The notes under the pieces: model-generated
Told to the model about the DNA's origin: nothing
The model's input: only the letters and a program-made list of their open reading frames with translations
Databases searched by the model: none
Position numbers and translations under genes: made by a program
Shown here: in pieces, positions 1 to 15,860 of the stretch
Layout of the letters: each line of letters begins with the position of its first letter
Numbering within the stretch: the stretch's first letter is position 1
Source of the DNA: Firmicutes bacterium HGW-Firmicutes-14
Lineage (GTDB): Bacteria > Bacillota > Thermincolia > Thermincolales > UBA2595
Direction of reading: 5' to 3'
Assembly: GCA_002840275.1 (NCBI GenBank)
Contig: PHAB01000012.1
Coordinates: 1-64,000 of the forward strand
Length of the DNA: 64,000 bases

Positions 1-1938
1 ATTTTTCAGCCGTCCGGCCGCCGGGGAAAGGTTGCCGAAGGCAAGACCCTGCTGGAAGCCTCATATGAACTCGGTGTAGAAATAGAAGCGCCGTGCGGGG
101 CTCATAAGGTCTGCGGAAAATGTAAAGTTAAGGTGGAGACGGGTTTTTTCGAGAAGTTCAATATCGATTCCCGGGTTGAGAACCTGTCACCCCTGACGGA
201 AGAAGAGAAAGAAATGCTGAAGCCTGAGGAAATAGAAAATAATTTCCGCCTGGCATGTTCCACCCGGATTCAGGGTGACATACTGCTGTATGTACCGGAA
301 GAGAGCCGCAAAGCCGACCAGGTCGTACTGGATACCGGTAAGGAGCGGGTATTTAAACTGAATCCGGCGGTTAAAAACTACTATGTGCAAATGCAGAAGG
401 CTACCCTGGAAGACCACCGGGACGACCTGCAGCGTTTGCAGGATGCCCTGAAAGACCAGTTCGGACTGGAAAACCTCGCTATGGATTACTTTATTCTGAG
501 AGAACTGCCCAATATTATCAGGGAACAGGACTGGAAGGTAACGGCCACGGTGCTTTATGACCGGGAAATCATTGATGTCAGGCCCGGTTTTGTCCAGAAG
601 TGGTACGGCATCGGGATAGATGTGGGAACTACTACCGTAGCGGCATACCTTTGTGATATGAATACAGGACAGATGCTAGTCAAGGACGGGATGATGAACC
701 CGCAGGTAAGGTACGGGGAAGACGTCCTGTCCAGGATTACCTATGCCATGATGAATGAAGACGGGCGGGATAAACTGCATGATGCCATTATTGAAGGGAT
801 TAACACCCTGGCTGCCCGGATGACCGAAAAAGCCGGACTTAAACCTGAAGATGTTGTGGAAATCACCCTGGTGTTCAATACCGCCATGCACCACTGCCTG
901 CTGAACCTGGAACCGAAATTTATGGGCCGGGCCCCCTTTGCCCCGGCCATCAGCGCTCCCTTTGATGTTAAAGCCCGTGATTTGGGGATAAAAATAAACA
1001 AGTGTGCCAATATCCATGTCCTGCCGGTGGAAGCCGGATTCGTCGGACCAGACAATGTCTCCGTGCTGATTGCGGAAGAACCGTACAAACAGGATGAAGA
1101 AATCCGCCTGATCATAGATATCGGGACCAACGGAGAAATCGACCTGGGCAACAGGAACAGACTGCTCTGCACCTCCTGTGCCACCGGCCCGGCCCTGGAA
1201 GGGGCTCAGATCAAATTTGGGATGAGGGCCGCCCCGGGAGCCATCGAAAAACTCAGGATTGACCCTGAAACCCTGGAATGCACCTACCGGGTAATCGGTG
1301 ATGAAAACTGGCATGGCCGGGGCAGTAAGGGAAATGCCAAGGGTATCTGCGGTTCCGGCATCATTGATATGGTGGCTGAGGTATTTAAAGCCGGAATCAT
1401 CAACAAATCAGGGAAATTTAACATGAAACTGGAAACAGACCGTATCCGCAGGGATGAGAACGGCAAAGCCGAGTATGTAATGGTATATGCGGAAGACAGC
1501 GGTATCGGCAAAGACATCACTGTTACCCAGGGAGATATCAGGGCCGTACAGCTGGCCAAATCAGCCCTGTATTGCGGTGCCAAGATTCTGATGAGGAAAC
1601 TCGGGACAGACAAAATAGACCGGGTAACCCTGGCGGGAGCCTTTGGCAGTTTTATCGACAAAGAATCCTCCATGGTTATCGGGATGTTCCCTGATTGTGA
1701 CCTGGACAGGGTTGCGGCCGTGGGGAACGCGGCCGGTGACGGGGCTCAGGCAGCCCTGCTGGATAAAGACAAGAGGATAGAAGCCCGGGATGTGGCAGCA
1801 AAAGTAGACTTTGTGGAAACCGCCGTAGAACCTGACTTCCAGGAACTGTTTGCTGCGGCCATGGCGTTCCCTCACCAAACCGACGATTTCCCCAGCATCC
1901 AGCATATCCTGGACAAAATCCCCGGTTACAAGAAATAG
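1..1938 (+). CDS. RamA-like corrinoid activation ATPase (5' partial)
   Basis: ATP-dependent reductive activator that returns oxidised Co(II) corrinoid proteins to Co(I); DUF4445/ASKHA family. The frame is open from base 1, so the true start lies outside the window. The N-terminus has a [2Fe-2S] ferredoxin cysteine pattern (CGAHKVCGKCKV, about residues 32-43 of the visible part). The ATPase half has ASKHA phosphate motifs GIDVGTTT and IDIGTNGE and a late GAFGSF motif. An N-terminal 2Fe-2S domain is the bacterial layout, whereas Methanosarcina RamA carries 4Fe-4S clusters at the C-terminus. It heads the methylamine cluster and would serve its three corrinoid proteins. It ends in UAG (1936-1938), in the same frame as the next gene, in an organism that appears to decode UAG as pyrrolysine; see findings. 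Confidence 0.92.
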   Translation: MFQPSGRRGKVAEGKTLLEASYELGVEIEAPCGAHKVCGKCKVKVETGFFEKFNIDSRVENLSPLTEEEKEMLKPEEIENNFRLACSTRIQGDILLYVPEESRKADQVVLDTGKERVFKLNPAVKNYYVQMQKATLEDHRDDLQRLQDALKDQFGLENLAMDYFILRELPNIIREQDWKVTATVLYDREIIDVRPGFVQKWYGIGIDVGTTTVAAYLCDMNTGQMLVKDGMMNPQVRYGEDVLSRITYAMMNEDGRDKLHDAIIEGINTLAARMTEKAGLKPEDVVEITLVFNTAMHHCLLNLEPKFMGRAPFAPAISAPFDVKARDLGIKINKCANIHVLPVEAGFVGPDNVSVLIAEEPYKQDEEIRLIIDIGTNGEIDLGNRNRLLCTSCATGPALEGAQIKFGMRAAPGAIEKLRIDPETLECTYRVIGDENWHGRGSKGNAKGICGSGIIDMVAEVFKAGIINKSGKFNMKLETDRIRRDENGKAEYVMVYAEDSGIGKDITVTQGDIRAVQLAKSALYCGAKILMRKLGTDKIDRVTLAGAFGSFIDKESSMVIGMFPDCDLDRVAAVGNAAGDGAQAALLDKDKRIEARDVAAKVDFVETAVEPDFQELFAAAMAFPHQTDDFPSIQHILDKIPGYKK

Positions 1939-1968
1939 CCAAAAATTAATGGATTGCAGGTGAAAATG

Positions 1969-2937
1969 ATGTTTAAACTGGAGAAACCCCAAAAAGTGTG
2001 CCAGATAGGCAGTTTCAAGGTTGGCGGCCAGTACGGTGAAAACCCGCCGCTCCTGATATCATCAATGTTTCATAATGGAGACAGGATATTGGAGAGCAGG
2101 AAGGAAGGCAAGTGGGATAAGGCCAAAGCGGAAGAATATGTGAAGAGACAGGAAGCCCTGGAAGATATGACAGGCATCCCCTCCATTGTGGCCATGGTGG
2201 CCAATTCCCGGGATGAGATGGCCAGGTATATCGACTGGTTCACAAGTATCAGTGACAGGCCCTTCGGTATAGACATGTGGGTGGAAAAACCCAGGCTGGA
2301 AGCAGCGGAATATGTGGCCCAAAAAGGCCTGCAGGACCGGCTGGTGTACAACAGCATCACCCCCTGGGACAAGGACATCCCCGGTCAGGTGGCAAAGCTT
2401 AGGGAACTGGGCATCAAACATGTGATAGTCCAGGCCTATGACGTTACCGACCCGTCGCCCCAGGGCAGGCTGACCAGTTTTAATAAGATGATGGAATCAG
2501 TTGGTGAAGGGACCTTTGAATCAGTGCTGGTAGATACCTCGGTAATGAACCTGCCGGCCATCGCCTTCTCAGGAGTGGCCAACAGGATTGTTAAGGAAGC
2601 CACCGGCTGGCCCTGTGGTGTGGCCAGTTCCAATGGCACATATATGTGGAAGGAAGCCCGGGAGCTGTTCGGTACCGACGGTTTTGCCGCCATGAATGCT
2701 GCCGGTCAGGGATGTTCGGCCCTGTTCTGGACCGACTTCATCTTCTACGGGCCGATAGTGGCCGCCCCCAGGATGTTCCCGGCCGTAGTATCCGGCGCCG
2801 TTATGGCTGCCACCATGGGATTCTATGAGACGGGCAGGCTGCCATCCAATGAGAACCATCCCCTTTACAAATTCTTTGGCGAGTTTGCCGAAAAACTTAA
2901 AGGCGGAGATGAGCAGTCCCTGCCGGTACATGATTAA
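1969..2937 (+). CDS. MtrH/MtgA-type methylcorrinoid:tetrahydrofolate methyltransferase
   Basis: MtrH-family TIM-barrel protein of 322 aa. Bacterial members such as MtgA of Desulfitobacterium move the methyl group from a methyl-corrinoid protein to tetrahydrofolate, which is the likely exit route for methylamine carbon here. The start at 1969 (MFKLEK) matches the usual family N-terminus and has an AGGTG 7 nt upstream; in-frame starts at 1954, 1960 and 1966 cannot be excluded. Family-like segments include VGGQYGENPPLL near the N-terminus and CGVASSNGTYMW in the C-terminal half. It lies 30 nt after the RamA-like gene in the same frame, so UAG readthrough would join the two. The acceptor (THF) is inferred from family knowledge. 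Confidence 0.88.
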   Translation: MFKLEKPQKVCQIGSFKVGGQYGENPPLLISSMFHNGDRILESRKEGKWDKAKAEEYVKRQEALEDMTGIPSIVAMVANSRDEMARYIDWFTSISDRPFGIDMWVEKPRLEAAEYVAQKGLQDRLVYNSITPWDKDIPGQVAKLRELGIKHVIVQAYDVTDPSPQGRLTSFNKMMESVGEGTFESVLVDTSVMNLPAIAFSGVANRIVKEATGWPCGVASSNGTYMWKEARELFGTDGFAAMNAAGQGCSALFWTDFIFYGPIVAAPRMFPAVVSGAVMAATMGFYETGRLPSNENHPLYKFFGEFAEKLKGGDEQSLPVHD

Positions 2938-2990: not shown

Positions 2991-4040
2991 ATGAATGCAA
3001 AGGAAAGAGTCATAAACCAGCTGCTGGGCAAAGAAGTTGACCGTCCGGCCTGTTACAGCGGTATGGGCAATGTAACCACTGCCGGTCTGGAACAGTTTGG
3101 CTACAAATTTGCCAGGGTTCACGGAGACGCCAAAATGATGGCTGATACCGCTGCATCGTCCCACAAGCTTTTCGGCTTTGAATGTGCGATAGTGCCGTAT
3201 GACCTGTGCCTGGAAGCCGAAGCCATCGGCTGTGTGATGAACCCCTATGAACAGGTTGACCAGCTCCTGTACCCCACAATTAAAGAAAAGGTCTGCCATT
3301 CGGAAGACGAAATGGAAACCTTCCCCATCCCTGATGATGTGGCTTCCCGCGGCCGGGTGCCTTTAGTCTGTGAGGCTATCAGACTGCTGCAGGCAGATAT
3401 CGGGAGTGAAGTGGCCATAGGGACATATGTGCTTGGACCCTTCACCCTGGCCGGACAGTTAATGGACTTAAACGACCTGTTCAAACTGTCCTTCAAGAGC
3501 CCGGCCAAGGTCAATGCCATGCTGGACCGCCTGTCAGAAGCCACCATCAAGATAGCCAGGGCCCTCAGGGATGCCGGCGCCGATTATATCTGCATCAGGG
3601 AAATGGGTGCTACCACCGATGTTTTAAGTCCCAAGGTATTCCAAAAGGTAATCTTCCCCCATCTGAAAAAGGTCAGGGATGCCCTGGCTGATGTGCCGAC
3701 CATCCTGCATATCTGCGGCGGTACCAACAAGATTATGAATATCCTGAAGGATGTGGGCTGTAACGCCATATCGGTGGAAACCAAGAACGACCTGGCCAAA
3801 AGCCGGGAAGATATCGGATATGAGCCGCTCCTCTTCGGGAATGTGGATGCCTATAACATACTGGTAACGGCCGCCCCGGAAGATGTGGAAAAGGCAGTGC
3901 TGGCCGCCCTGGAAGGCAGCTGTGACTCCATATGGCCCAGTTGTGACATCTGGCCCACAGCGCCGATTGAAAACCTTAAAGCAATGACAGAAACCGTGAA
4001 GAAATACGGGGCAGAAAAATGGGTCCGCAAGAACAGGTAA
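2991..4040 (+). CDS. MtaA/MtbA-type corrinoid methyltransferase (UroD fold)
   Basis: A 349-aa protein of the uroporphyrinogen decarboxylase-like superfamily, methylcobamide:coenzyme M methyltransferase branch. The HICGG motif (about residue 239) and a C-terminal cysteine in PSCDIWPTAPIENL fit the zinc-binding H-x-C...C set of MtaA/MtbA. In methanogens this enzyme methylates coenzyme M. A Gram-positive acetogen-type host is not expected to use CoM, so the real acceptor is open: it may relay methyl groups to THF or another thiol, or act in demethylation. It has a good ribosome site (ACGGAGG) 8 nt before ATG 2991 and sits between the MtrH-type gene and the first corrinoid gene, so it is part of the same operon. 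Confidence 0.85.
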   Translation: MNAKERVINQLLGKEVDRPACYSGMGNVTTAGLEQFGYKFARVHGDAKMMADTAASSHKLFGFECAIVPYDLCLEAEAIGCVMNPYEQVDQLLYPTIKEKVCHSEDEMETFPIPDDVASRGRVPLVCEAIRLLQADIGSEVAIGTYVLGPFTLAGQLMDLNDLFKLSFKSPAKVNAMLDRLSEATIKIARALRDAGADYICIREMGATTDVLSPKVFQKVIFPHLKKVRDALADVPTILHICGGTNKIMNILKDVGCNAISVETKNDLAKSREDIGYEPLLFGNVDAYNILVTAAPEDVEKAVLAALEGSCDSIWPSCDIWPTAPIENLKAMTETVKKYGAEKWVRKNR

Positions 4041-4069
4041 AACAAAAAAACTTAAGGGAGGCAAATAAA

Positions 4070-4693
4070 ATGAGCAACGAAAAAGAAATCCTGCAAAAAC
4101 TCAGGGATGGGGTAGTTGAATACGACAATGACATGGTTATCGAGGCTTCCAATGAAGCACTGGCCCAGGGAATTGACGCTGAAAAAGCCATATTTGACGG
4201 GCTGGTGGCCGGAATTGAAGAAATTGGCCGCCTTTACGAGCTGGAAGAAATCTTTGTGCCGGAAATGCTCCTGGCTGCTGATGCCATGTATGCCGGGCTG
4301 AACATCCTGAAGCCCCATATGGAGAAAAAGGGTGACGGGGGAACCAAAGGCCATGTGATCATGGGTGTGGTTCAGGGCGATGTGCATGACATCGGCAAAA
4401 ATATAGTCAAGATGATGTTTGATGTGGCCGGGTTTGAGGTCCATGACCTGGGCCGGGACGTGCCTTTGGAGGACTTTATTGAGGAACAGCTGAACACCAA
4501 TTCCGACCTGGTCTGCCTGTCAGCCATGATGACCACCACCATGGTCGGGATGCCGGAGATTATCAGGAAGCTCAAGGAGAAAAACCCCAAGGTCAAGATT
4601 ATGATAGGCGGGGCCCCGGTCAATGAGAACCTGGCCAGCCAGTGGGGAGCCGACGGGTATGCCAAAGATGCCAATAACGCAGGATGCTATTAA
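4070..4693 (+). CDS. Corrinoid (B12-binding) methyl-carrier protein, C-terminus frameshifted
   Basis: MtbC/MttC/MtgC-type corrinoid protein: a helical cap followed by a Rossmann B12-binding domain, with cobalt-ligating His106 in the DVHDIGKN motif. It accepts the methyl group from an amine methyltransferase and passes it on. ATG 4070 has AGGGAGG 8 nt upstream; a longer upstream frame is not supported. The reading frame ends early at 207 aa (...DANNAGCY). Directly downstream the alternative frame encodes DAINMVSSLRNL and stops at 4721, which looks like the family's normal last helix, so a small indel near 4675-4685 has probably cut the C-terminus. The B12 site itself is intact. The two paralogues in this cluster are 212 and 214 aa. 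Confidence 0.88.
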   Translation: MSNEKEILQKLRDGVVEYDNDMVIEASNEALAQGIDAEKAIFDGLVAGIEEIGRLYELEEIFVPEMLLAADAMYAGLNILKPHMEKKGDGGTKGHVIMGVVQGDVHDIGKNIVKMMFDVAGFEVHDLGRDVPLEDFIEEQLNTNSDLVCLSAMMTTTMVGMPEIIRKLKEKNPKVKIMIGGAPVNENLASQWGADGYAKDANNAGCY

Positions 4694-4770
4694 TATGGTT
4701 AGCTCTTTGAGGAACCTGTAATCTTTTTAAATTACAAATGTAATCAGGTTTCTGTCACCTAAAAATTCGA

Positions 4771-4786
4771 TTACATATGGAATCAA
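4771..4786. promoter_or_regulatory. Palindrome, possible activator site
   Basis: GATTACATATGGAATC is a nearly perfect inverted repeat (GATT...AATC around CATATG) about 155 bp upstream of the sigma-54 promoter. Together with the 4831-4856 palindrome it may be an upstream activator sequence for one of the sigma-54 regulators encoded at 13454-17264. The assignment is inferred from position and symmetry only. Confidence 0.35.
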
Positions 4787-4830
4787 AACAGCGTTAGCGG
4801 AGACGTGTTGTCTCTCTATGATTCGCCGGA

Positions 4831-4856
4831 GCTGGAATCAATTTTTTGATTCCAGC
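4831..4856. promoter_or_regulatory. 26-bp palindrome, candidate enhancer (UAS)
   Basis: Arms GCTGGAATC and GATTCCAGC are perfectly complementary around an 8-nt AT-rich centre. The repeat lies about 70-95 bp upstream of the sigma-54 promoter, a typical distance for an enhancer-binding protein site. It is not followed by a T-run, so it is a poor terminator, although it could also form a hairpin in RNA from the upstream genes. The GGAATC/GATTCC half-site recurs at 4781-4786. Confidence 0.45.
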
Positions 4857-4925
4857 AAGAATCAATAAAGGGTATAAATTACCTGCCGGGGCGTGGAAAC
4901 CTAGAGAACAAAGCCTTTTAAAAAA

Positions 4926-4943
4926 TTGGCATCAATATTGCAT
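4926..4943 (+). promoter_or_regulatory. Sigma-54 (-24/-12) promoter
   Basis: TTGGCATCAATATTGCAT matches the sigma-54 consensus (TTGGCAC, N5, TTGCA) almost exactly, with GG at 4928-4929, GC at 4940-4941 and the required 10-nt gap. Transcription would begin near 4953, about 85 nt before the second corrinoid gene. It would drive the corrinoid-mttB-mttC-mtbB block, and two sigma-54 activators are encoded downstream. Confidence 0.75.
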
Positions 4944-5037
4944 TTACATAATTAGCGGGGACTTTCAAAAGGGGGTGACCTGCTCAAGAAGGCATTTTCC
5001 CGATTTGAACAATAATTTGGAGGTGAAATTATTTAAA

Positions 5038-5676
5038 ATGGGTAAAGAAGATATCCTCAAAAGAGCTATGAACGCAGTTATTGACGGGGATGAGGATGCT
5101 GCTATAGCAGCGGCAAATCAGGCTATTACAGAAGGGCTGAATCCCGTTGAGGTAATATCCGAGGGACTTTCCGCCGGAATGACCAAAGTCGGTGATTTGT
5201 TCAACAATGAAGAAATTTCCCTGCCCTTTGTCATAGTTGCTGCCGATGCCATGACCAAGGCCATTGCTATCCTTGAACCACATATTCCTCCGGAACACAA
5301 AGGGGAAAAAGAAGGGACCGTAGTTATGGGTACGGTAGAAGGAGACATTCACGACATAGGCAAAGGAATCGTATGTACAATGTTGAGAGTGTATGGTTTT
5401 GAAGTCCATGACCTGGGACGGGATGTCCCTGTACAGGCGTTTATCGACAAAGCCAAAGAAGTTAATGCGGACATTATCGGTTCTTCAACTTTGATGACAA
5501 CCACCCTGCCTGGACAGAAAGCTCTCCAGGAAGCTATTGCAGCTGAAGGGCTGAAGGTCAAAACCATGGTCGGCGGAGCTGCCACTAACCAGCAGTGGGC
5601 TGACAAAATAGGGGCTAATGCTTATGGAGAAAATGCTACCGATGCGGTCCAGAAAGCAAAAGAACTGGCCCAATAA
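5038..5676 (+). CDS. Corrinoid methyl-carrier protein (MttC/MtbC family)
   Basis: Second corrinoid protein of the cluster, 212 aa, with a methionine-synthase-like cap (about residues 1-85) and a B12-binding domain. The motif DIHDIGKG places the cobalt ligand at His105, and GSSTLMTTT and MVGGAA are later B12-fold motifs. It is the first gene behind the sigma-54 promoter. ATG 5038 is preceded by GGAGGTGA with a long 11-nt gap; the frame is open further upstream to 4846, but that stretch contains the promoter and is not coding-like. Its place before mttB suggests it carries methyl groups from trimethylamine or dimethylamine; which partner it serves cannot be read from sequence. Confidence 0.92.
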   Translation: MGKEDILKRAMNAVIDGDEDAAIAAANQAITEGLNPVEVISEGLSAGMTKVGDLFNNEEISLPFVIVAADAMTKAIAILEPHIPPEHKGEKEGTVVMGTVEGDIHDIGKGIVCTMLRVYGFEVHDLGRDVPVQAFIDKAKEVNADIIGSSTLMTTTLPGQKALQEAIAAEGLKVKTMVGGAATNQQWADKIGANAYGENATDAVQKAKELAQ

Positions 5677-5701: not shown

Positions 5702-7174
5702 TTGAAACGAGGACTTCATGCCGGTTTAGATGAACGGCGCGGTTTTTGCCTTAATATGTTCAGTAACGATGAACTTGAAGAAATCCATTACGCGACCCTG
5801 GAAGTGCTGGAAAATGTGGGGATACTGGTCTTCTGTGATGAAGCCCTGGAGATTCTGGACGGGGCCGGCGCAGATGTTGATAAGACTAATAATACGGTAA
5901 GGTTCCCCCAATGGCTGGTAGAAGATGCAATCAGGTCGGCACCGAGAAAAATCCTGCTTGCAGGCCGCGATCCCAAACATGACATGGTCTGTGAAGGCAG
6001 GAGGGTGGGCTTTACCAACTTCGGAGCAGGGGTCATGATAGTTGATCCCTATACCGGAGAAATGAAGGAAACCACCAAAAAGGATGTTGGGCAGACAGCC
6101 CTTGTCTGTGACGCCCTGGATACTGTTGATATTTATTCAAGTGCTGTGGTGGGAAGGGATATGCCTGAAGCAACAGTGGACCTGCATGAGGCAGAAGCCT
6201 TCCTGTCCAATACGACTAAACACTGCCAGCATATCGACCTCACCGGCGGCGCCGGTGCCAGGGGATTTCTGGAGATGGGTGCTGCCATCGTCGGCGGGAT
6301 GGAGGAACTTCATCGCAGGCCTGTGATTTCAGCTCTGGTCTGCCCCGTAAGTCCGCTCCAACTCCATACCAATACCTGTGAAATAATAATCGAATTTGCC
6401 AAGGCAGGCGTCCCTGTAAATATCTTGTCAATGGCTATGTCGGGAGCCTCTTCCCCCATCACCCTGGCCGGGACCCTTGTAACCCATAATGCCGAGGTGT
6501 TGGCCGGCATCGTATTGGCCCAATCCACCCGCAAGGGATCTCCAATTATGTACGGAAGTTCAACAACAACCTTTGACCTGACATATGTTACTGCACCCGT
6601 GGGTGCACCGGAACTGGGGATGATTAACGCCGGAGTTGCCGAACTGTCCAACTTCTACAGACTTCCCAGCTATGTGGCAGGTACCTAGGGTGACTCCAAG
6701 CTTTCTGATGCTCAAGCCGGTCATGAAAAGACCATCACCGCACTGCTGCCGGCCCTGGCCGGAGCCAACCTGATTTACGGCATGGGCATGCTTGAGCTTG
6801 GAGTGACATTCAGCTTCGCTCAACTCCTTATCGACGATGAGATTGCTTCCATGGTTAAACGTGTAGTGCAGGGCATTACCGTAAACGATGAGACACTGGC
6901 TGTTGATATTATCAAAAATGTCGGAGCCGGGAAAGATTTCCTGGGACAGCGGCATACGAGAGATTTCATGGCCAGAGAGCAGTCTAAACCCAAACTGATT
7001 GACAGAAGGATGAGGGGCGCATGGTCCAGCCGCGGAGGAAAATCCATGGCTGAGCGGGCTAATGATAAAGCTATCGAAATCCTTGAAAACCATAAACCCG
7101 TACCTCTGCCGGAGGATGTCCAGAAAAGGTTCAGGGAAATCATAGAACGCGCTGAATCAGAACACGGCGTATAA
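5702..7174 (+). CDS. mttB: Trimethylamine:corrinoid methyltransferase with pyrrolysine (UAG 6686-6688)
   Basis: MttB demethylates trimethylamine and methylates its cognate corrinoid protein, using pyrrolysine as the active-site residue. The frame starts at TTG 5702, six nt after GGAGGTGA, and meets UAG at codon 329 (6686-6688) in the context YVAGT-UAG-GDSKLSDA. It then runs on to UAA 7172-7174, giving 490 aa, the usual MttB length. The sequence after UAG (HEKT..LPALAGANLIYGMG) is conserved MttB, not junk. The paralogue at 12009-13475 has its UAG at the same codon, 329. The gene lies between two corrinoid genes and ends 14 nt before the next start. Product identity follows from the family; function needs the host's pylT/pylS. 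Confidence 0.95.
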
Positions 7175-7188
7175 AAGGTGGTGAAATT

Positions 7189-7833
7189 ATGAGCAGGGAA
7201 GAATTAATAGAGCAGGCTGCCCAGTCTATTGTTGAGGCTAACAAGGATCTGGCGGTGGAAATTGCCAATAAAGCTATAGCTGAAGGCATTGACCCGGTTG
7301 ATATGATTAACAACGGCTATTCGGAAGGAATGGCCAGGTGTGGAGACCGGTTTGACAGGGGTGAAATGTTCCTGCCGGAACTGATTGTGGCATCTGATGC
7401 CATGGTGGCAGCAATCAGTGTTCTCGAAGAAGCCATGCCGGCGGAAAACCGCGCTGAAAAACTTGGGACAGTGGTATTAGGTACTATCGAAGGCGATGTC
7501 CACGATATCGGTAAGGGAATTGTTGCAACCATGCTCAGGGTATATGGTTTTGAGGTCCATGACCTGGGCCGGGATGTTCCTATCAGCTCGTTTGTGGCTA
7601 AGGCAAAGGAAGTCAATGCTGACATCGTCGGCTCCTCGGCCCTGATGACGACCACCCAGGTTGGACAGAAAGCCCTTGAGGAGGCTCTTAAGAACGCCTG
7701 CCTCAGGGATAAGGTTAAGACGATGGTGGGAGGAGCTGTGGTCACCCAGCGCTGGGCTGACAAGATAGGGTCCGACCTTTATGCAGAAAATGCTTCCGAA
7801 GCGGTAATTAAGCTTAAAGAACTTTTCAGTTAA
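7189..7833 (+). CDS. mttC: Corrinoid methyl-carrier protein (MttC-like)
   Basis: Third corrinoid protein, 214 aa, closely similar to the 5038-5676 protein over its full length. Cobalt-binding His105 lies in DVHDIGKG; GSSALMTTT and MVGGAV follow. It has a GGTGG ribosome site before ATG 7189. It lies directly between mttB and mtbB, which is the arrangement of mttC in methylotrophic methanogens, so it is most likely the trimethylamine corrinoid carrier. Assignment to MttC rather than MtbC rests on gene order only. Confidence 0.9.
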   Translation: MSREELIEQAAQSIVEANKDLAVEIANKAIAEGIDPVDMINNGYSEGMARCGDRFDRGEMFLPELIVASDAMVAAISVLEEAMPAENRAEKLGTVVLGTIEGDVHDIGKGIVATMLRVYGFEVHDLGRDVPISSFVAKAKEVNADIVGSSALMTTTQVGQKALEEALKNACLRDKVKTMVGGAVVTQRWADKIGSDLYAENASEAVIKLKELFS

Positions 7834-7857
7834 AAAGTATGCCAGAAGGAGGTGTGG

Positions 7858-9261
7858 ATGTTGAAGAAATACCTGACTCGGATGGGTGACGGCGAGAGGG
7901 TGGAAATGACTGCCGACGAAATCAGACGGGATTTCGAACTTGGGACCAATGATGCGGCAGACCGGGGAAAAATAGCGCCCCTGACCCAGGATGACCTGGA
8001 CCGGCTTCTCGAAATCTTTACCAATCCAAATAAGGTTGTCAGTGTTGAACCGGGTAATGAAGTACCACTGACCCATGATATCGGCACCCTGAGGTTAATG
8101 GGTGACCAGGGTAACAGCGGGGTTGGAATTCCCCTAAGCAGGGTTCAGGGTATTCAGGTTCATGAAAGAGCCTTTGCCTGTGATACCATGGAACTTGGGC
8201 ATATCGATTACAGCTTTAAGCCGGTAAAGCCCGTGATAGCCATGGAACAGCAGGAGCTGGAAAACGCTCTGTTGTCTACTATTGTACCCCTTTTCTATGG
8301 AGCCATGCCAAACCTGGGTTTGTACTACAGCCCGGACGGGCCTTTTGGCAACCCGTCGGATCTCCTTCCGATGGGCAAGATACAGGAAGCCCGTGAAGCC
8401 CAGGAAGGCGCTGTGGAACACGCTACCAGGGACATGATCTACATAGCTGAGAAGCTGGCTGCTGTAGGAGCGGACGGAATCAATTTTGACACGACCGGAG
8501 CGGCAGGGGATACCGATATGAAGGCTACCCTTCATGCGGTGGAATATCTGAAGGCCAATACAAACCTTGCCGTAGAAGTGGGAATGGCCGGCGAATTTGT
8601 GCTGGGTATGCACGGCGGTCTGGAATATGATGGAGTAAGAATAGCCGGACTTTACCCACACCAGCAGGTCAAGCTTGTTGAAAAGGCCGGGGCTGATATA
8701 TTCGGACCGGTGGTTAACACTAACACCAGTAAGTCCATGGCTTGGAACCTGGCCAGGGCTGTGACCTTTATCAAGGCCTGTACGGAAGTGGCTAACATAC
8801 CCATACATGTTAATATGGGTATGGGTGTAGGGGGATCCCCCGTATTTGAGACTCCCCCTGTCGACAGTGTGACCAGGGCCTCCAAGGCCATGGTGGAAAT
8901 TGCCAAAGTCGACGGGTTGTAGGTAGGCGTAGGTGACCCCTTCGGGATGCCGATAGCTCACGGAATGGCAGCGGGAATGGGCGGAATCAGGACTGCCGGA
9001 GATCTGGTGGCCCGCATGCAGATGACCCGCAAGATGCGGATCAGAGAAGCAAAAGCCTATGTTGCCGAGAAGCTAAAAGTTTCCCCGACCGACCTGTCAA
9101 ATGAGCATGTGATGAGGGAAGTCCGCGAGGAGTTGGACATCGGAATCATTACATCAGTGCCGGGTTGTGCCAAGGGCATAGAAGCCAAAGCCAGGATTGC
9201 CGAACTGCTGGGAATTGAAATAGCAAGTGTTAAGAGGCTTAAAAATAAGGTTAACTTTTAA
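7858..9261 (+). CDS. mtbB: Dimethylamine:corrinoid methyltransferase with pyrrolysine (UAG 8920-8922)
   Basis: MtbB transfers a methyl group from dimethylamine to a corrinoid protein. From ATG 7858 (AGGAGG five nt upstream) the frame reads [15 protein letters not shown], matching the family N-terminus, and meets UAG at codon 355 (8920-8922) within [19 protein letters not shown]. It continues to UAA 9259-9261, a total of 467 aa, the full family length. The flanks of the UAG are the known pyrrolysine neighbourhood of MtbB. GTG 7852 is an alternative start with poor spacing. No monomethylamine enzyme (mtmB) is present in the window, so the final demethylation step is not accounted for here. Confidence 0.95.
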
Positions 9262-9330: not shown

Positions 9331-9378
9331 TGACACCAAACAGTATCATGTGAAATTTATTCCGGGGCGGTGGTCGGT

Positions 9379-9936
9379 TTGACTCAAAAAAGAAATGATA
9401 TCCTGGGAGACCTGTTTAAATCTCTGGTGAAAAGTTCAGGGGCTGACCTTTATGAACTGGACATCCGGAAGATTAACCCGAGGGAGAGCGTCCGGATGAA
9501 GTGTCTGGTCCCTCTATGTGAATATTATGGAATCTCTAAAGTCTGTCCACCGCATATACCGGGTGTAGCAGAATTCAGAGAGGCATTAAAGGACTTCAAC
9601 AGGGCTTTTCTGGTGGCATTACGGGAAAAGGCTGACCACATTGAAAAATATCACGTCGATTTCCGCGCTGAACTCAAATTGGCTGATATTGTTTCAAGGC
9701 TTGAACTGGCAGCATTTCAAAAGGGTGAATACCAGGCTGTTGGGTTAACTGTGGGCGGATGCAAATTTTGTCCCGAATGTGCTCCCGGCAATGAGCCGTG
9801 CCGGCACCCTTTTAAAGCACGTCCAAGTCCTGAAGGCTTTGGTATTGATATAACCGAACTGGCCCGGGAAGCCGGAGTGCCGGTAGAATGGCCGCCGGAA
9901 CAGTATGTTACCTTCATGGGATTGGTTCTAATTTAA
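9379..9936 (+). CDS. DUF2284 predicted metal-binding protein
   Basis: A 185-aa protein with the DUF2284 cysteine pattern: an N-terminal group (CLVPLCEYYGISKVCPPH, about residues 46-63) and a second cluster (CKFCPECAPGNEPCRHP, about 129-145) near the C-terminus, consistent with a bound metal or Fe-S cluster. The function of the family is unknown; members often lie near corrinoid methyltransferase genes, as here after mtbB. TTG 9379 is preferred because the GGGGCGG ribosome site lies 8 nt before it; GTG 9370 overlaps that site. It may share the methylamine transcript if the 9308-9330 hairpin is read through. Confidence 0.8.
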   Translation: MTQKRNDILGDLFKSLVKSSGADLYELDIRKINPRESVRMKCLVPLCEYYGISKVCPPHIPGVAEFREALKDFNRAFLVALREKADHIEKYHVDFRAELKLADIVSRLELAAFQKGEYQAVGLTVGGCKFCPECAPGNEPCRHPFKARPSPEGFGIDITELAREAGVPVEWPPEQYVTFMGLVLI

Positions 9937-10011
9937 GCCGGGGTGTTGATAATTTCATTTGGAGATGCTTTGCGGAGCTGTTATCCTAAAAAAAAAATAC
10001 CTTTATAACGC

Positions 10012-10073: not shown

Positions 10074-11012
10074 ATGCTGGAGTTGTACGCGAAAATCAAA
10101 GAGGGCGTTATTGGCAGGAATAATGAGATAAAAGCAATACTGGCCGCCATGGATGCCGAAAAACACATCTTATTGGAAGGACCTCCCGGAACATCCAAAT
10201 CAACCTTGCTCCGGAGTATTTCCAGGGAGGCTGAAATTCCATTTTATATTGTTGAAGGAAATATTGACCTCACACCGGCTAAACTGGTGGGCCACTTTAA
10301 CCCTGCCAAGGTAATGGCTGATAATTACCAGCCGGAATACTTTGAAAAAGGACCTCTTACAAGGGCTATGCTGGAAGGCGGTATTCTTTATATTGAGGAA
10401 TTCAACAGGATGCCGGCAGATGTTTCCAATGTTCTTATTACCCCGATGGAAGAAGGGGAGATGTATATACCGAGGTATGGGCTTGTCAGGGCAGTCCGTC
10501 CCTTTACCGTAATTTCGGCCCAAAACCCTTATGATGACGTTGGTACAGTCCGGGTAAGCAGGGCCTTTATGGACCGCATATGCCTGATTAAAATGGGCTA
10601 CCAAAGTGAGGAAGAAGAACAGGATATTGTGAAACAGAGGACAGGTCATGACAATCTCCGAATTATAGCCCAGGCTGTAAAACTGGTTCGGAAGACCAGG
10701 GAGCATCCTGACATCAAACTGGGCGCATCTGTCCGGGCTGCAATTGACATGGTGGACATTTTTGCCAGTCTGCAGAAACTGGGGGACCGGGACAATGAAA
10801 ATTTCCTGACGGCTGCCGGTATGGCTCTGGCCAACAAAATCTGGTTGAACGAAATCACAGCCAGAACCCCTGACGAAATCATCGCCGACATCTGGAATTC
10901 CATGAAAATCCAGTATAAGAAAGATGAGAGCGGACAAAAATTAACTGCCGGTGAAGGAGAAAAGGGCAGAGACGAACAGGAAAGGCAAAAAAAAAAGCTG
11001 AACGTTTTGTAG
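10074..11012 (+). CDS. MoxR-family AAA+ ATPase
   Basis: A 312-aa MoxR-type ATPase with Walker A GPPGTSKST (about residues 40-48), Walker B ILYIEEFNR (about 103-111) and a sensor region around SAQNPYDD. MoxR ATPases work with VWA-domain partners to mature, load cofactors into or remodel other proteins, and the next gene encodes such a partner. The C-terminus is charged (GEGEKGRDEQERQKKK) and reads into a run of ten A before UAG 11010-11012. A -1 shift at that run would join this protein directly to the VWA protein. Its position between mtbB and the second mttB suggests a role in assembling or activating the methyltransferase system, but this is inference. Confidence 0.88.
   Translation: MLELYAKIKEGVIGRNNEIKAILAAMDAEKHILLEGPPGTSKSTLLRSISREAEIPFYIVEGNIDLTPAKLVGHFNPAKVMADNYQPEYFEKGPLTRAMLEGGILYIEEFNRMPADVSNVLITPMEEGEMYIPRYGLVRAVRPFTVISAQNPYDDVGTVRVSRAFMDRICLIKMGYQSEEEEQDIVKQRTGHDNLRIIAQAVKLVRKTREHPDIKLGASVRAAIDMVDIFASLQKLGDRDNENFLTAAGMALANKIWLNEITARTPDEIIADIWNSMKIQYKKDESGQKLTAGEGEKGRDEQERQKKKLNVL
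10987..10997 (+). other. A10-G slippery sequence at MoxR/VWA junction
   Basis: Ten A followed by G. In the moxR frame the last seven bases (10991-10997) read A AAA AAG, the same heptamer as the E. coli dnaX -1 frameshift site. Coding-like sequence in the -1 frame begins at this point (AERFVGNRFLDE) and continues without a stop into the VWA gene, which has no ATG, GTG or TTG before 11102. Ribosomal -1 slippage, transcriptional slippage, or a one-base sequence error would all fit. Confidence 0.55.
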
Positions 11013-11101
11013 GAAACAGGTTCCTGGATGAGACAATAACCAATGCCTCTTATTATTATCGGGTTGCATCCTACCTTAATACCCATCCGGATGAACTGCC
11101 C

Positions 11102-11866
11102 GTGTTTTTTGAAAAGGCGGATTCCCTCGAGGTATTTGCCAGCATTTTCGGCATGCTGAAGCCTGGGATAAGGTCCCTGGCCGTAAAAATTGCCAGCCGC
11201 CTGATAATTAAAATCGCCAAACAGATTGCCGATACCGGCTACCGGTCCGGAAGCCTCAAACTGGTCAGGGGTTTTTCAGACGGCACTGAAATAGAACTTG
11301 ATAAAAGCCTGGAAAACTATGTTGAAGCACCTGAGAGGGGCATTTTGGATAACATTGTATCCTATACCCGGCAGCGGGAGAGAAGGGCCTTTGTAATTAT
11401 GCTGGACCACAGCTATTCCATGAGAGGAATCAAGATTATTCTGGCGGCTATTACAGCTGCTTCCATCGCCCAGCATTTCAAGAGGGACTATGCTATCCTG
11501 GCATTCAGCAACAGGGTTTCGACCCTCAAATCGATAGATGATAAGACCGGACCGGAGATTGTTCTGGAAAGGATGTTTGCCCTGGAACTCCAGGGAGATA
11601 CCGATATCAACCTGGCGTTGAATGAGGGATTAAGGCAGGTGCAGAATTTCGATCTGAAAAAAGGCCTTATTCTTACTGACGGCGCCTGGAATCAGGGGGA
11701 GGACCCCCTTCAGACGGCAGCCCGGTATGATAAGTTAAGTGTTATAGGTTTTCCGCCTGCCAAGCAGGAAAAAATACGGCTCCTCGCATTGAAGGGAAAA
11801 GGGGAATTCTCCTTTGTCGAAGATGAAACCCAGGTCGCGGAAGCTATTCTGAGGTGCTTGAACTGA
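11102..11866 (+). CDS. VWA-domain protein (MoxR partner)
   Basis: At least 254 aa with a von Willebrand A domain in the C-terminal half. The MIDAS-like motif is DHSYSMRG (DxSxS, about residue 103); later motifs are LQGDTDI and LTDGAWNQGEDP. GTG 11102 is the first canonical in-frame start, but about 35 coding-like residues lie upstream (from AERFVGNRF at about 10997) with no start codon of their own. Normal translation may therefore come from -1 frameshifting out of moxR, or the start is non-canonical. Such proteins act as metal-dependent adaptors for MoxR ATPases. It is followed by a 142-nt gap and the second mttB. Confidence 0.8.
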   Translation: MFFEKADSLEVFASIFGMLKPGIRSLAVKIASRLIIKIAKQIADTGYRSGSLKLVRGFSDGTEIELDKSLENYVEAPERGILDNIVSYTRQRERRAFVIMLDHSYSMRGIKIILAAITAASIAQHFKRDYAILAFSNRVSTLKSIDDKTGPEIVLERMFALELQGDTDINLALNEGLRQVQNFDLKKGLILTDGAWNQGEDPLQTAARYDKLSVIGFPPAKQEKIRLLALKGKGEFSFVEDETQVAEAILRCLN

Positions 11867-12008
11867 GCTAAGTTACCATTGATTAATATACCTCTATGGG
11901 ATATACTTAGGATTATAAATAATAGCATTTCTTAATAGTGCCCATAACATTTGATTACATCATATGACAATTAATAAGATTTCATATTTTGTAACAGGGG
12001 GAACCGAT
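11867..12008 (+). other. Intergenic region before second mttB
   Basis: A+T-rich gap. It contains a possible -10 (TATAAA within GGATTATAAATAAT near 11912-11925) but no sigma-54 -24/-12 pair that I can find. The last bases carry the AGGGGG ribosome site of mttB (11996-12001). Confidence 0.3.
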
Positions 12009-13475
12009 GTGAAGAAAGGCCAAAGAATCTCATCATCAGGCTGGCTGGGGCTTGGGCTGAAGACCCTTACCCCGGGAGAATTGGACGACATCCACGGGGC
12101 AACTCTGAAAACCCTTCATTACTCGGGTATGAAGGTGTTTAGCCAAAGGGCCCTTGAGATATTTGCCGACGGCGGGGCGGATGTTGATTTTAAAAACCTT
12201 ATGGTCCGAATACCACCCTATATGATAGAGGAGGCCATTGATTCGGCGCCCTCATGCATCATTCTGGCCGGCAGGGATCCTGAAAATGACGTATTTGTCG
12301 GCGGGAAAAGAGTTCACTTTACCACTTTCGGCGCCGGGTGCAGGTTTATGGACACTCATACCGGCAAAGTAGCCCCCTCTACCAAGTCAGATATTGAGCT
12401 TTCGGCTCTGGTGTGTGACGCCATGGACAGTGTCGATATATTCACCAGCCCCATGGTGGCTACAGACATGCCTGTGGAGACAGCCGGTCTGCATGAGGCA
12501 GAGGCCTTTTTACTTAACACTTCTAAGCACTGCCAGCATGACCGCCTGTGTGACGGAATGGAGGCCAGGTTTTTTTTCGAAATGGCCTCAACCATTGCCG
12601 GTGGCCCGGAGAAACTGAGGGAGCGGCCTATTGTTTCAACTATGGTCTGCCCGTCAAGCCCTCTTCAGCTTCATAAGGGAACTGCAGAAATAATCATGGA
12701 ATCGGCCGATGCGGGTGTTCCGGTGAATATACTTTCAATGGTCATGGCCGGTGCGACTGCCCCGGTCACCCTGGCTGGGACACTGGTGGTCCATAATGCT
12801 GAGGTGCTGGGCGGGCTGGCACTGCATCAACTGACTAACCGGGGGGCCCCGGTTATTTACGGCAGTTCCTCAACTATATTTGATATGAACTGTATCACTG
12901 CTCCTGTGGGAGCGCCGGAACTTGGTATGATAGGTGCGGCAGCTGCTCAACTGGCAAACTTCTACCTGCTTCCCAGCTACGTCGGCGGAACCTAGGGAGA
13001 CTCAAAACTTACCGATATCCAGATCGGCCATGAAAAATCCCTTACAACCATTATACCGGCATTGGCAGGGGCCAACCTGATATATGGCATGGGGATGATG
13101 GAAATGGGGGTTACCTTCAGTTTAGTACAGCTGATGATTGACGATGCCATTGTTAATGACGTCAAAAAGATGATTGTCTCAGACGTTGGTGTGGATAATA
13201 TATCTTCTCGGGAATGGCTTGATAAACATCATGGGAGAGGATTCCCGCTGAGATACTGGTCACCTCACAAGTTAAGGGGCAGGGAGGTACCGTTTCATGG
13301 ATCAAGACTTGACGGGAGGATTGATATTACTGACAGAGCCGACCAAAGGGTCCAGACAATACTGAATAATCACCGTCTGAAGCAGCTGCCTCAGGCAACC
13401 ATAAAAAAAATCAGAGAAATAATCATAGAAGCAGGGGAAAGGAGGAAGTGGCTTTGCTTACAGCAAGAGATTTAA
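12009..13475 (+). CDS. mttB: Second trimethylamine methyltransferase with pyrrolysine (UAG 12993-12995)
   Basis: Paralogue of the 5702-7174 enzyme, 488 aa. GTG 12009 (AGGGGG 7 nt upstream) gives MKKGQR, which aligns with MKRGLH of the first copy; the ATG at 11964 would add 15 unmatched residues. UAG falls at codon 329, the same codon as in the first copy, in the context YVGGT-UAG-GDSKLTDI, and the frame runs on through conserved MttB sequence to UAA 13473-13475. The copies differ enough to be old duplicates or separately acquired. This one has no adjacent corrinoid gene, but its 3' end overlaps a sigma-54 activator gene. It may have a different amine substrate. Confidence 0.94.
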
Positions 13476-15535: not shown

Positions 15536-15860
15536 TGGACGACAGGGTCAAAAATCTCTGGTCAAAACAAGTTAAATGTGGTAAAATTTTAAATACAAAA
15601 AAAATCTTACAAAAAAAAAATCGGTGGGAAATTACATGTTAATATAACAATATTTTTAATAGCAGTGGCGCTTGCAAAGAATATTACTTTGTTGGGCGCT
15701 TTTTTGTCTTTTTGCCACCGGCTGCTGATGATACCTTGGTATTTACGGTGCAGCCCGGGGCGGTGGCGGAAAAATACCGTGTAAGAGGGTAATTGGGGGA
15801 ATGTTTTTGAATAAATCTTAATAAGGGGAGTTATGTCTCCTAAGAAGGGATGTTGGCAGT
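15536..15860 (+). other. Intergenic region between the two sigma-54 activators
   Basis: 325 nt without a gene. It holds two long A-runs (about 15597-15619), T-rich stretches after GGGCGC near 15690-15715 that could end transcription of the upstream gene, and a candidate sigma-54 promoter at 15736-15752. No ORF of note. Confidence 0.4.
15736..15752 (+). promoter_or_regulatory. Weak candidate sigma-54 promoter
   Basis: TTGGTATTTACGGTGCA has the GG-N10-GC spacing (GG 15738-15739, GC 15750-15751) but deviates from the consensus at the inner positions. It is about 110 nt upstream of the second activator gene. Confidence 0.3.

Follow-up and report, generated by a model that had tools for sequence, protein, structure and literature searches.

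Gene Content of the Locus

The window, i.e., the whole stretch of 64,000 nt that was analysed, contains a pyrrolysine-dependent methylamine:corrinoid methyltransferase operon in which a MoxR-type AAA+ ATPase gene and a VWA coding region are situated between a DUF2284 gene and a second MttB-type methyltransferase gene (Table 1). The PylS gene of this genome is located on another contig. In most close relatives, the pair likewise has MtbB, corrinoid protein, MttB, or DUF2284 genes as neighbours. Other gene contexts were observed for the clade of in-frame fusions described below and for the group of G618 and G636. In case of the latter two (L081 and L082), the frame-shifted pairs adjoin genes that were judged by eye to be glycolate-oxidase-like (GlcD/E/F-type), and thus the recoded pair also occurs outside methylamine operons.

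Two VWA remnants were also noticed. Outside the window, a remnant of 35 aa with 63% identity to the VWA part of the window is located at G000:C23:92958-93062 (L089), within a further cluster of methylamine methyltransferase genes that lies on the contig of the window. Furthermore, a Thermincola-type relative has a second, disrupted copy of VWA that lacks a MoxR partner, near positions 254546-255016 of G007:C2 (L088).

Table 1. Features of the methylamine operon and of the MoxR–VWA junction; positions refer to the window.
Feature	Position	Strand	Basis and remarks
RACo-type corrinoid activation protein	133..1938	+	Pfam RACo_C_ter, middle, linker
MtrH-like methyltransferase	1954..2937	+	Pfam
URO-D/MtbA-like methyltransferase	2991..4040	+	Pfam
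Two corrinoid proteins (4019-4693, 4846-5676)	4019..5676	+	Pfam B12-binding
MttB, trimethylamine methyltransferase, in-frame UAG (pyrrolysine)	5702..7174	+	Pfam MTTB on downstream part; translation through TAG
Corrinoid protein	7189..7833	+	Pfam B12-binding
MtbB, dimethylamine methyltransferase, in-frame UAG (pyrrolysine)	7852..9261	+	Pfam Dimeth_Pyl on both parts; translation through TAG
DUF2284 predicted metal-binding protein	9370..9936	+	Usually adjoins moxR-VWA
MoxR-type AAA+ ATPase	10074..11012	+	0 frame, 312 aa, stop TAG 11010-11012; ORF and Pfam
VWA-frame open stretch 5' of the slip site	10955..10996	+	Without ATG, GTG, or TTG
Slip site A10-G	10987..10997	+	A AAA AAG (10991-10997) in 0-frame register; sequence
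VWA (CoxE-like) coding part	10997..11866	+	-1 frame, 289 codons and stop TGA
0-frame stop TAG	11010..11012	+	Arises from GTA-G of a conserved Val-Gly
Second MttB-type methyltransferase, in-frame UAG	11964..13475	+	Pfam MTTB; translation through TAG

Reading Frames and Domains at the Junction

Read directly from the sequence, the A run of the junction comprises exactly 10 residues (10987-10996) and is followed by G at position 10997. The codons of the MoxR frame at the run are CAA AAA AAA AAG CTG AAC GTT TTG TAG; the end of moxR over A10-G, with A AAA AAG in the register required for a -1 slip, is thus directly visible, as it was given in the preliminary description. The next 0-frame stop after this TAG is a TAA at 11037-11039. 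The VWA frame opens at 10955, following a TGA at 10952-10954, and is closed by the TGA at 11864-11866. Its first ATG, GTG, or TTG is the GTG at 11102, located 105 bases 3' of the run and inside conserved sequence, which bears out the earlier statement that VWA coding sequence begins at the run in the -1 frame with no start before 11102. For a -1 slip at the run, a fusion of 308 + 289 = 597 aa was computed, which is the length of about 597 aa proposed earlier. Two further A10 runs of the window are intergenic (9988-9997 and 15611-15620), the first one just 5' of moxR. Among the relatives, the junction run is often the sole A/T run of at least 9 in the whole retrieved locus (10-20 kb).

The MoxR half is matched by Pfam AAA_5 (1.8e-22, 80 bits) and AAA_3 (1.7e-15, 57 bits), contains the Walker A (GPPGTSKS) and Walker B (ILYIEE) motifs expected of a MoxR AAA+ protein, and matches the structures of NorQ and CbbQ by sequence. 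The VWA half is matched by VWA_CoxE (4.7e-11, 43 bits at a cut-off of 26.4) and VWA (29 bits). According to the alignment, it carries the MIDAS pattern DxSxS...T...D of CoxE-type proteins as DHSYS, GDTD, and DGAWN. Its relatives are 60-79% identical, and it aligns without a break to the natural in-frame fusion P0003. Membership in the ChlD/CobS/cobaltochelatase group was considered and rejected: the fusion scores 33.6 bits with TIGR02442 against a cut-off of 779, and no match to TIGR02031 was obtained at 1e-5. Due to these scores far below those required by the chelatase models, the MoxR-VWA family is not ChlD.

Conservation of the A Run and of the Frame Offset

The nearest homologues were collected from the family and phylum of the window and from public genomes, among them MAGs of Thermincola ferriacetica and of Desulfobacterales, followed by wider searches; the genomes compared are mostly drafts or MAGs. 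In all 21 genomes in which the pair is shifted, an in-register slippery run of A8-A12 ends the MoxR frame and the VWA part continues in the -1 frame, never in the +1 frame, i.e., the offset of VWA minus MoxR is 2 mod 3 in 21/21. The slippery site looked for in orthologues is therefore present at the same place, and the suspicion that the number of A residues might simply be wrong, raised in the preliminary description, is not supported, since the same -1 offset recurs with A8-A12 in 21 distinct genomes. The shifted set includes the distant members G463, G618, G636, G761, G848, G958, G959, and G1072, which share 40-49% (MoxR) and 31-33% (VWA) identity with P0003, as far as both halves were measured. 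Some shifted members are GC-rich (0.62 in G463 and 0.58 in G618), and a run of the A10 type is unlikely to persist by chance in such genomes.

An assembly or sequencing error in a truly one-frame fusion, or else a recent pseudogene, could leave a comparable picture, since indel errors do arise in homopolymers such as the one affected, and relatives fused in one frame do exist. However, errors would scatter over +1 and -1, whereas the offset is always -1 in 21 genomes whose runs differ in length and phase. The 0-frame stop is kept, and both halves are intact and under constraint. Error or decay is thus largely refuted by conservation, and we regard it as very improbable indeed.

Selection Downstream of the Run and at the 0-Frame Stop

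Directly 3' of the run, the DNA evolves under purifying selection for the VWA frame. For the 35 codons following the run, pS values of 0.46-0.73 compare with pN values of 0.01-0.16 in six well-aligned pairs (pairs of G007, misaligned by one codon, were left out). In the window, this selected stretch stands 5' of any usable start codon. Within the run, Lys codons are spelled AAA beyond the usage of the gene (log10 P ~ -9.8), and the third position of the codon preceding the first complete AAA is A in 12 of 16 cases versus 4.8 expected (P 3e-5); due to the treatment of lineages as independent, which they are not fully, both P values somewhat overstate the case. In several genomes, VWA-frame stops occur at or shortly 5' of the run (in G303 and G304, a TAA immediately adjoins it), which excludes access to the VWA frame from the 5' side in these genomes.

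These observations bear on a reading with two ordinary, translationally coupled genes, in which VWA would be translated from an internal or non-standard start after termination of MoxR. The homologues of two Rhodococcus plasmids indeed have separate MoxR and VWA genes, and G004, G008, G301, and G636 offer an ATG or GTG at a distance of 23-39 bases 3' of the run. Nevertheless, conserved residues (R-Y/F-VG-x-x-FL) precede any start, the first VWA-frame start in the window lies as far as 105 bases 3' of the run and within conserved sequence, G303 and G194 have no start for 150 bases or more, and in G303 and G304 the VWA-frame stop touches the run. As no start codon is shared among the relatives, an internal VWA start was rejected, and we consider two coupled genes improbable.

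The 0-frame stop is itself conserved. In 11/11 frameshifters with the conserved Val-Gly motif, Val is spelled GTA, and this GTA-G spelling creates the UAG of the MoxR frame; in the in-frame fusion G302, Val is GTG and the stop is lost, whereas it is kept in 11/11 of the former. In relatives that have PylS, MoxR ends almost without exception in UAG. Since MttB and MtbB of the neighbourhood carry in-frame UAG codons and the genome has PylS, the UAG at 11010-11012 might be read as pyrrolysine, giving MoxR-Pyl with a short tail. This would be compatible with recoding, and UAG decoding may interact with the frameshift. UAG ends MoxR in 12 of the 21 frameshifters; all of these but G1110 and G1120 were checked for PylS, and the 10 that were checked have it. 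The predicted tails, however, are short and unlike one another, distant members and G194 end in UAA or UGA, and the UAG is forced by the spelling of Val-Gly. Moreover, pyrrolysine decoding would change the MoxR product little, because the next 0-frame stop usually follows within a few codons. We presume that a reading of this UAG as pyrrolysine is unlikely, although less so than two separate genes.

Relatives without the Frameshift

A one-frame fusion occurs in five relatives, three of them with a retained run (G302 with A10, G747 with A9, and G850 with A10) and two, G305 and G003, without any junction run. In case of G302 and G850, slipping by -1 at the A10 that they have kept would lead to a stop within two codons. 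Because of this early stop, these two could make free MoxR by a reverse use of the run, by analogy with the way in which E. coli dnaX makes gamma. In G579 (L054) and G1131 (L098), MoxR and VWA share one frame and are separated by a single UGA, situated at different places in the two genomes; reading through the stop codon and a late start of VWA on its own are both conceivable here. Ordinary separate genes, the arrangement that was sought as a counterexample, were found in the two Rhodococcus plasmids with 34-41% identity and only there, whereas the nearer exceptions are the in-frame fusions and the in-frame UGA cases.

In a tree of 22 fused sequences, four state changes were counted, with the shift as the commonest state in both deep parts. 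As several branches are long or open, any state assigned to the root of the MoxR-VWA tree is a reading and no proof.

Probable Recoding and the Slip Step

Taken together, the interpretation of the preliminary description is supported: judging from the sequences, moxR and VWA very probably constitute one recoded gene with a programmed -1 frame transition yielding free MoxR and MoxR-VWA. What the comparison shows is that the A run, the -1 offset, an early 0-frame stop, and selection for the VWA frame persist over the 21 genomes. Part of the expression would end at the 0-frame UAG and deliver the free MoxR AAA+ ATPase, and the other part would slip by -1 at A10-G and deliver the 597-aa fusion. 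Both products are presumably made in the cells.

The term "dnaX-like" that was applied to the site at first has to cover ribosomal as well as transcriptional slippage, the latter having been reported for dnaX of Thermus, and frameshifted chlD is the better analogue. Ribosomal and transcriptional slippage would yield the same two proteins, and long runs fit both. We give ribosomal slippage at A AAA AAG alone about an even chance, transcriptional slippage alone a distinctly smaller one, and a joint action of both the smallest. In case of transcriptional slippage, alone or in addition to ribosomal slippage, RNA polymerase would add an A, so that in part of the mRNAs the fusion reads as a single frame. 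With the same two products made at another step, this would be a form of recoding and no alternative to it. We regard its participation as quite conceivable, though somewhat short of even.

Several features point to RNA polymerase. Runs of 8-12 exceed the need of a heptamer, and the extra length looks selected; depending on the genome, the run ends at codon position 1, 2, or 3; and three in-frame fusions retain A9-A10. Conserved ribosomal stimulators are lacking as well: in 19 junctions, neither a consistent downstream hairpin nor an upstream Shine-Dalgarno-like signal (SD z-score) was found. Such stimulators are common in programmed -1 frameshift genes and are not required with long A runs. 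On the other hand, any run of at least 9 also holds an in-register slippery heptamer, and the run of G009 is only A8. Longer runs also raise frameshifting in E. coli constructs, where chelatase cassettes with A11, A9, and A7 gave 63, 40, and 10% frameshift, the efficiency growing with run length (PMC3711429).

Comparison with Known Systems

The dnaX gene with its tau and gamma products resembles the present case in that slippage within a stretch of A residues yields two forms of an AAA+ subunit that share one complex, as is presumed here. The slip is ribosomal at A AAA AAG in E. coli and transcriptional at A9 in Thermus. The E. coli shift shortens the product, whereas the shift of MoxR-VWA would lengthen it, and no conserved SD or hairpin was found at the MoxR-VWA junctions. 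A closer likeness is given by fs-chlD of the Mg/Co chelatases, in which one gene yields the small and medium chelatase subunits, i.e., AAA+ and AAA+-VWA, through a poly-A -1 slip (PMC3711429, PMC9227772). In that system, in-frame fused relatives exist and the gene is annotated as two genes, too. The family described here differs from it by its AAA_5/GvpN-like and VWA_CoxE domains and by its operon.

Pairs of a MoxR AAA+ protein with a VWA adaptor are also represented by NorQ/NorD, CbbQ/CbbO, and CoxD/CoxE, which are encoded by separate genes with their own starts, whereas the adaptor is here probably fused to MoxR through recoding. The NorQ hexamer binds one NorD (NorQ6:NorD1; PMC9976466) and acts via the VWA domain of NorD in metal insertion (PMC13036017). 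By analogy, free MoxR and MoxR-VWA may assemble together into a single hexamer with the VWA (MIDAS) domain on a minority of its subunits. The NorQ6:NorD1 precedent supports such a mixed ring without showing it, and it is plausible that the shift sets the ratio of ATPase to adaptor. A mixed ring is not needed everywhere, because G305 and G003, which lack a junction run, make only the fusion.

Due to the position of its gene in a pyrrolysine-dependent tri- and dimethylamine operon with MttB, MtbB, corrinoid proteins, and a RACo-type activator, where it is also situated in most close relatives, the client of MoxR-VWA is, judging by gene association, probably the corrinoid/pyrrolysine methyltransferase machinery. 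The complex would then remodel or reactivate the methyltransferases of its own operon. We know of no need for an AAA+ chaperone in the maturation or reactivation of methylamine:corrinoid methyltransferases. No mention of a MoxR-VWA component of pyrrolysine methylamine operons was found in the literature searched, and no description of a MoxR/VWA pair with frameshift or slippage was found in the openly licensed literature. The fusion is easily missed, because pipelines annotate two genes, or MoxR and a truncated VWA.

It is tempting to speculate, if only tentatively, that an ancient and widely conserved recoding switch determines the composition of a MoxR ring, with only a minority of subunits bearing a tethered VWA domain, and that this machine matures or reactivates methylamine:corrinoid methyltransferases in pyrrolysine-using bacteria. 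MoxR-VWA would then be the second AAA+/VWA family, besides ChlD, to make a motor and a motor-plus-adaptor by slippage at an A run, which would suggest that AAA+/VWA rings repeatedly face the problem of subunit ratio and solve it by recoding. It also indicates that the pyrrolysine-dependent metabolism of methylamines may involve a chaperone that has so far gone unrecognised.
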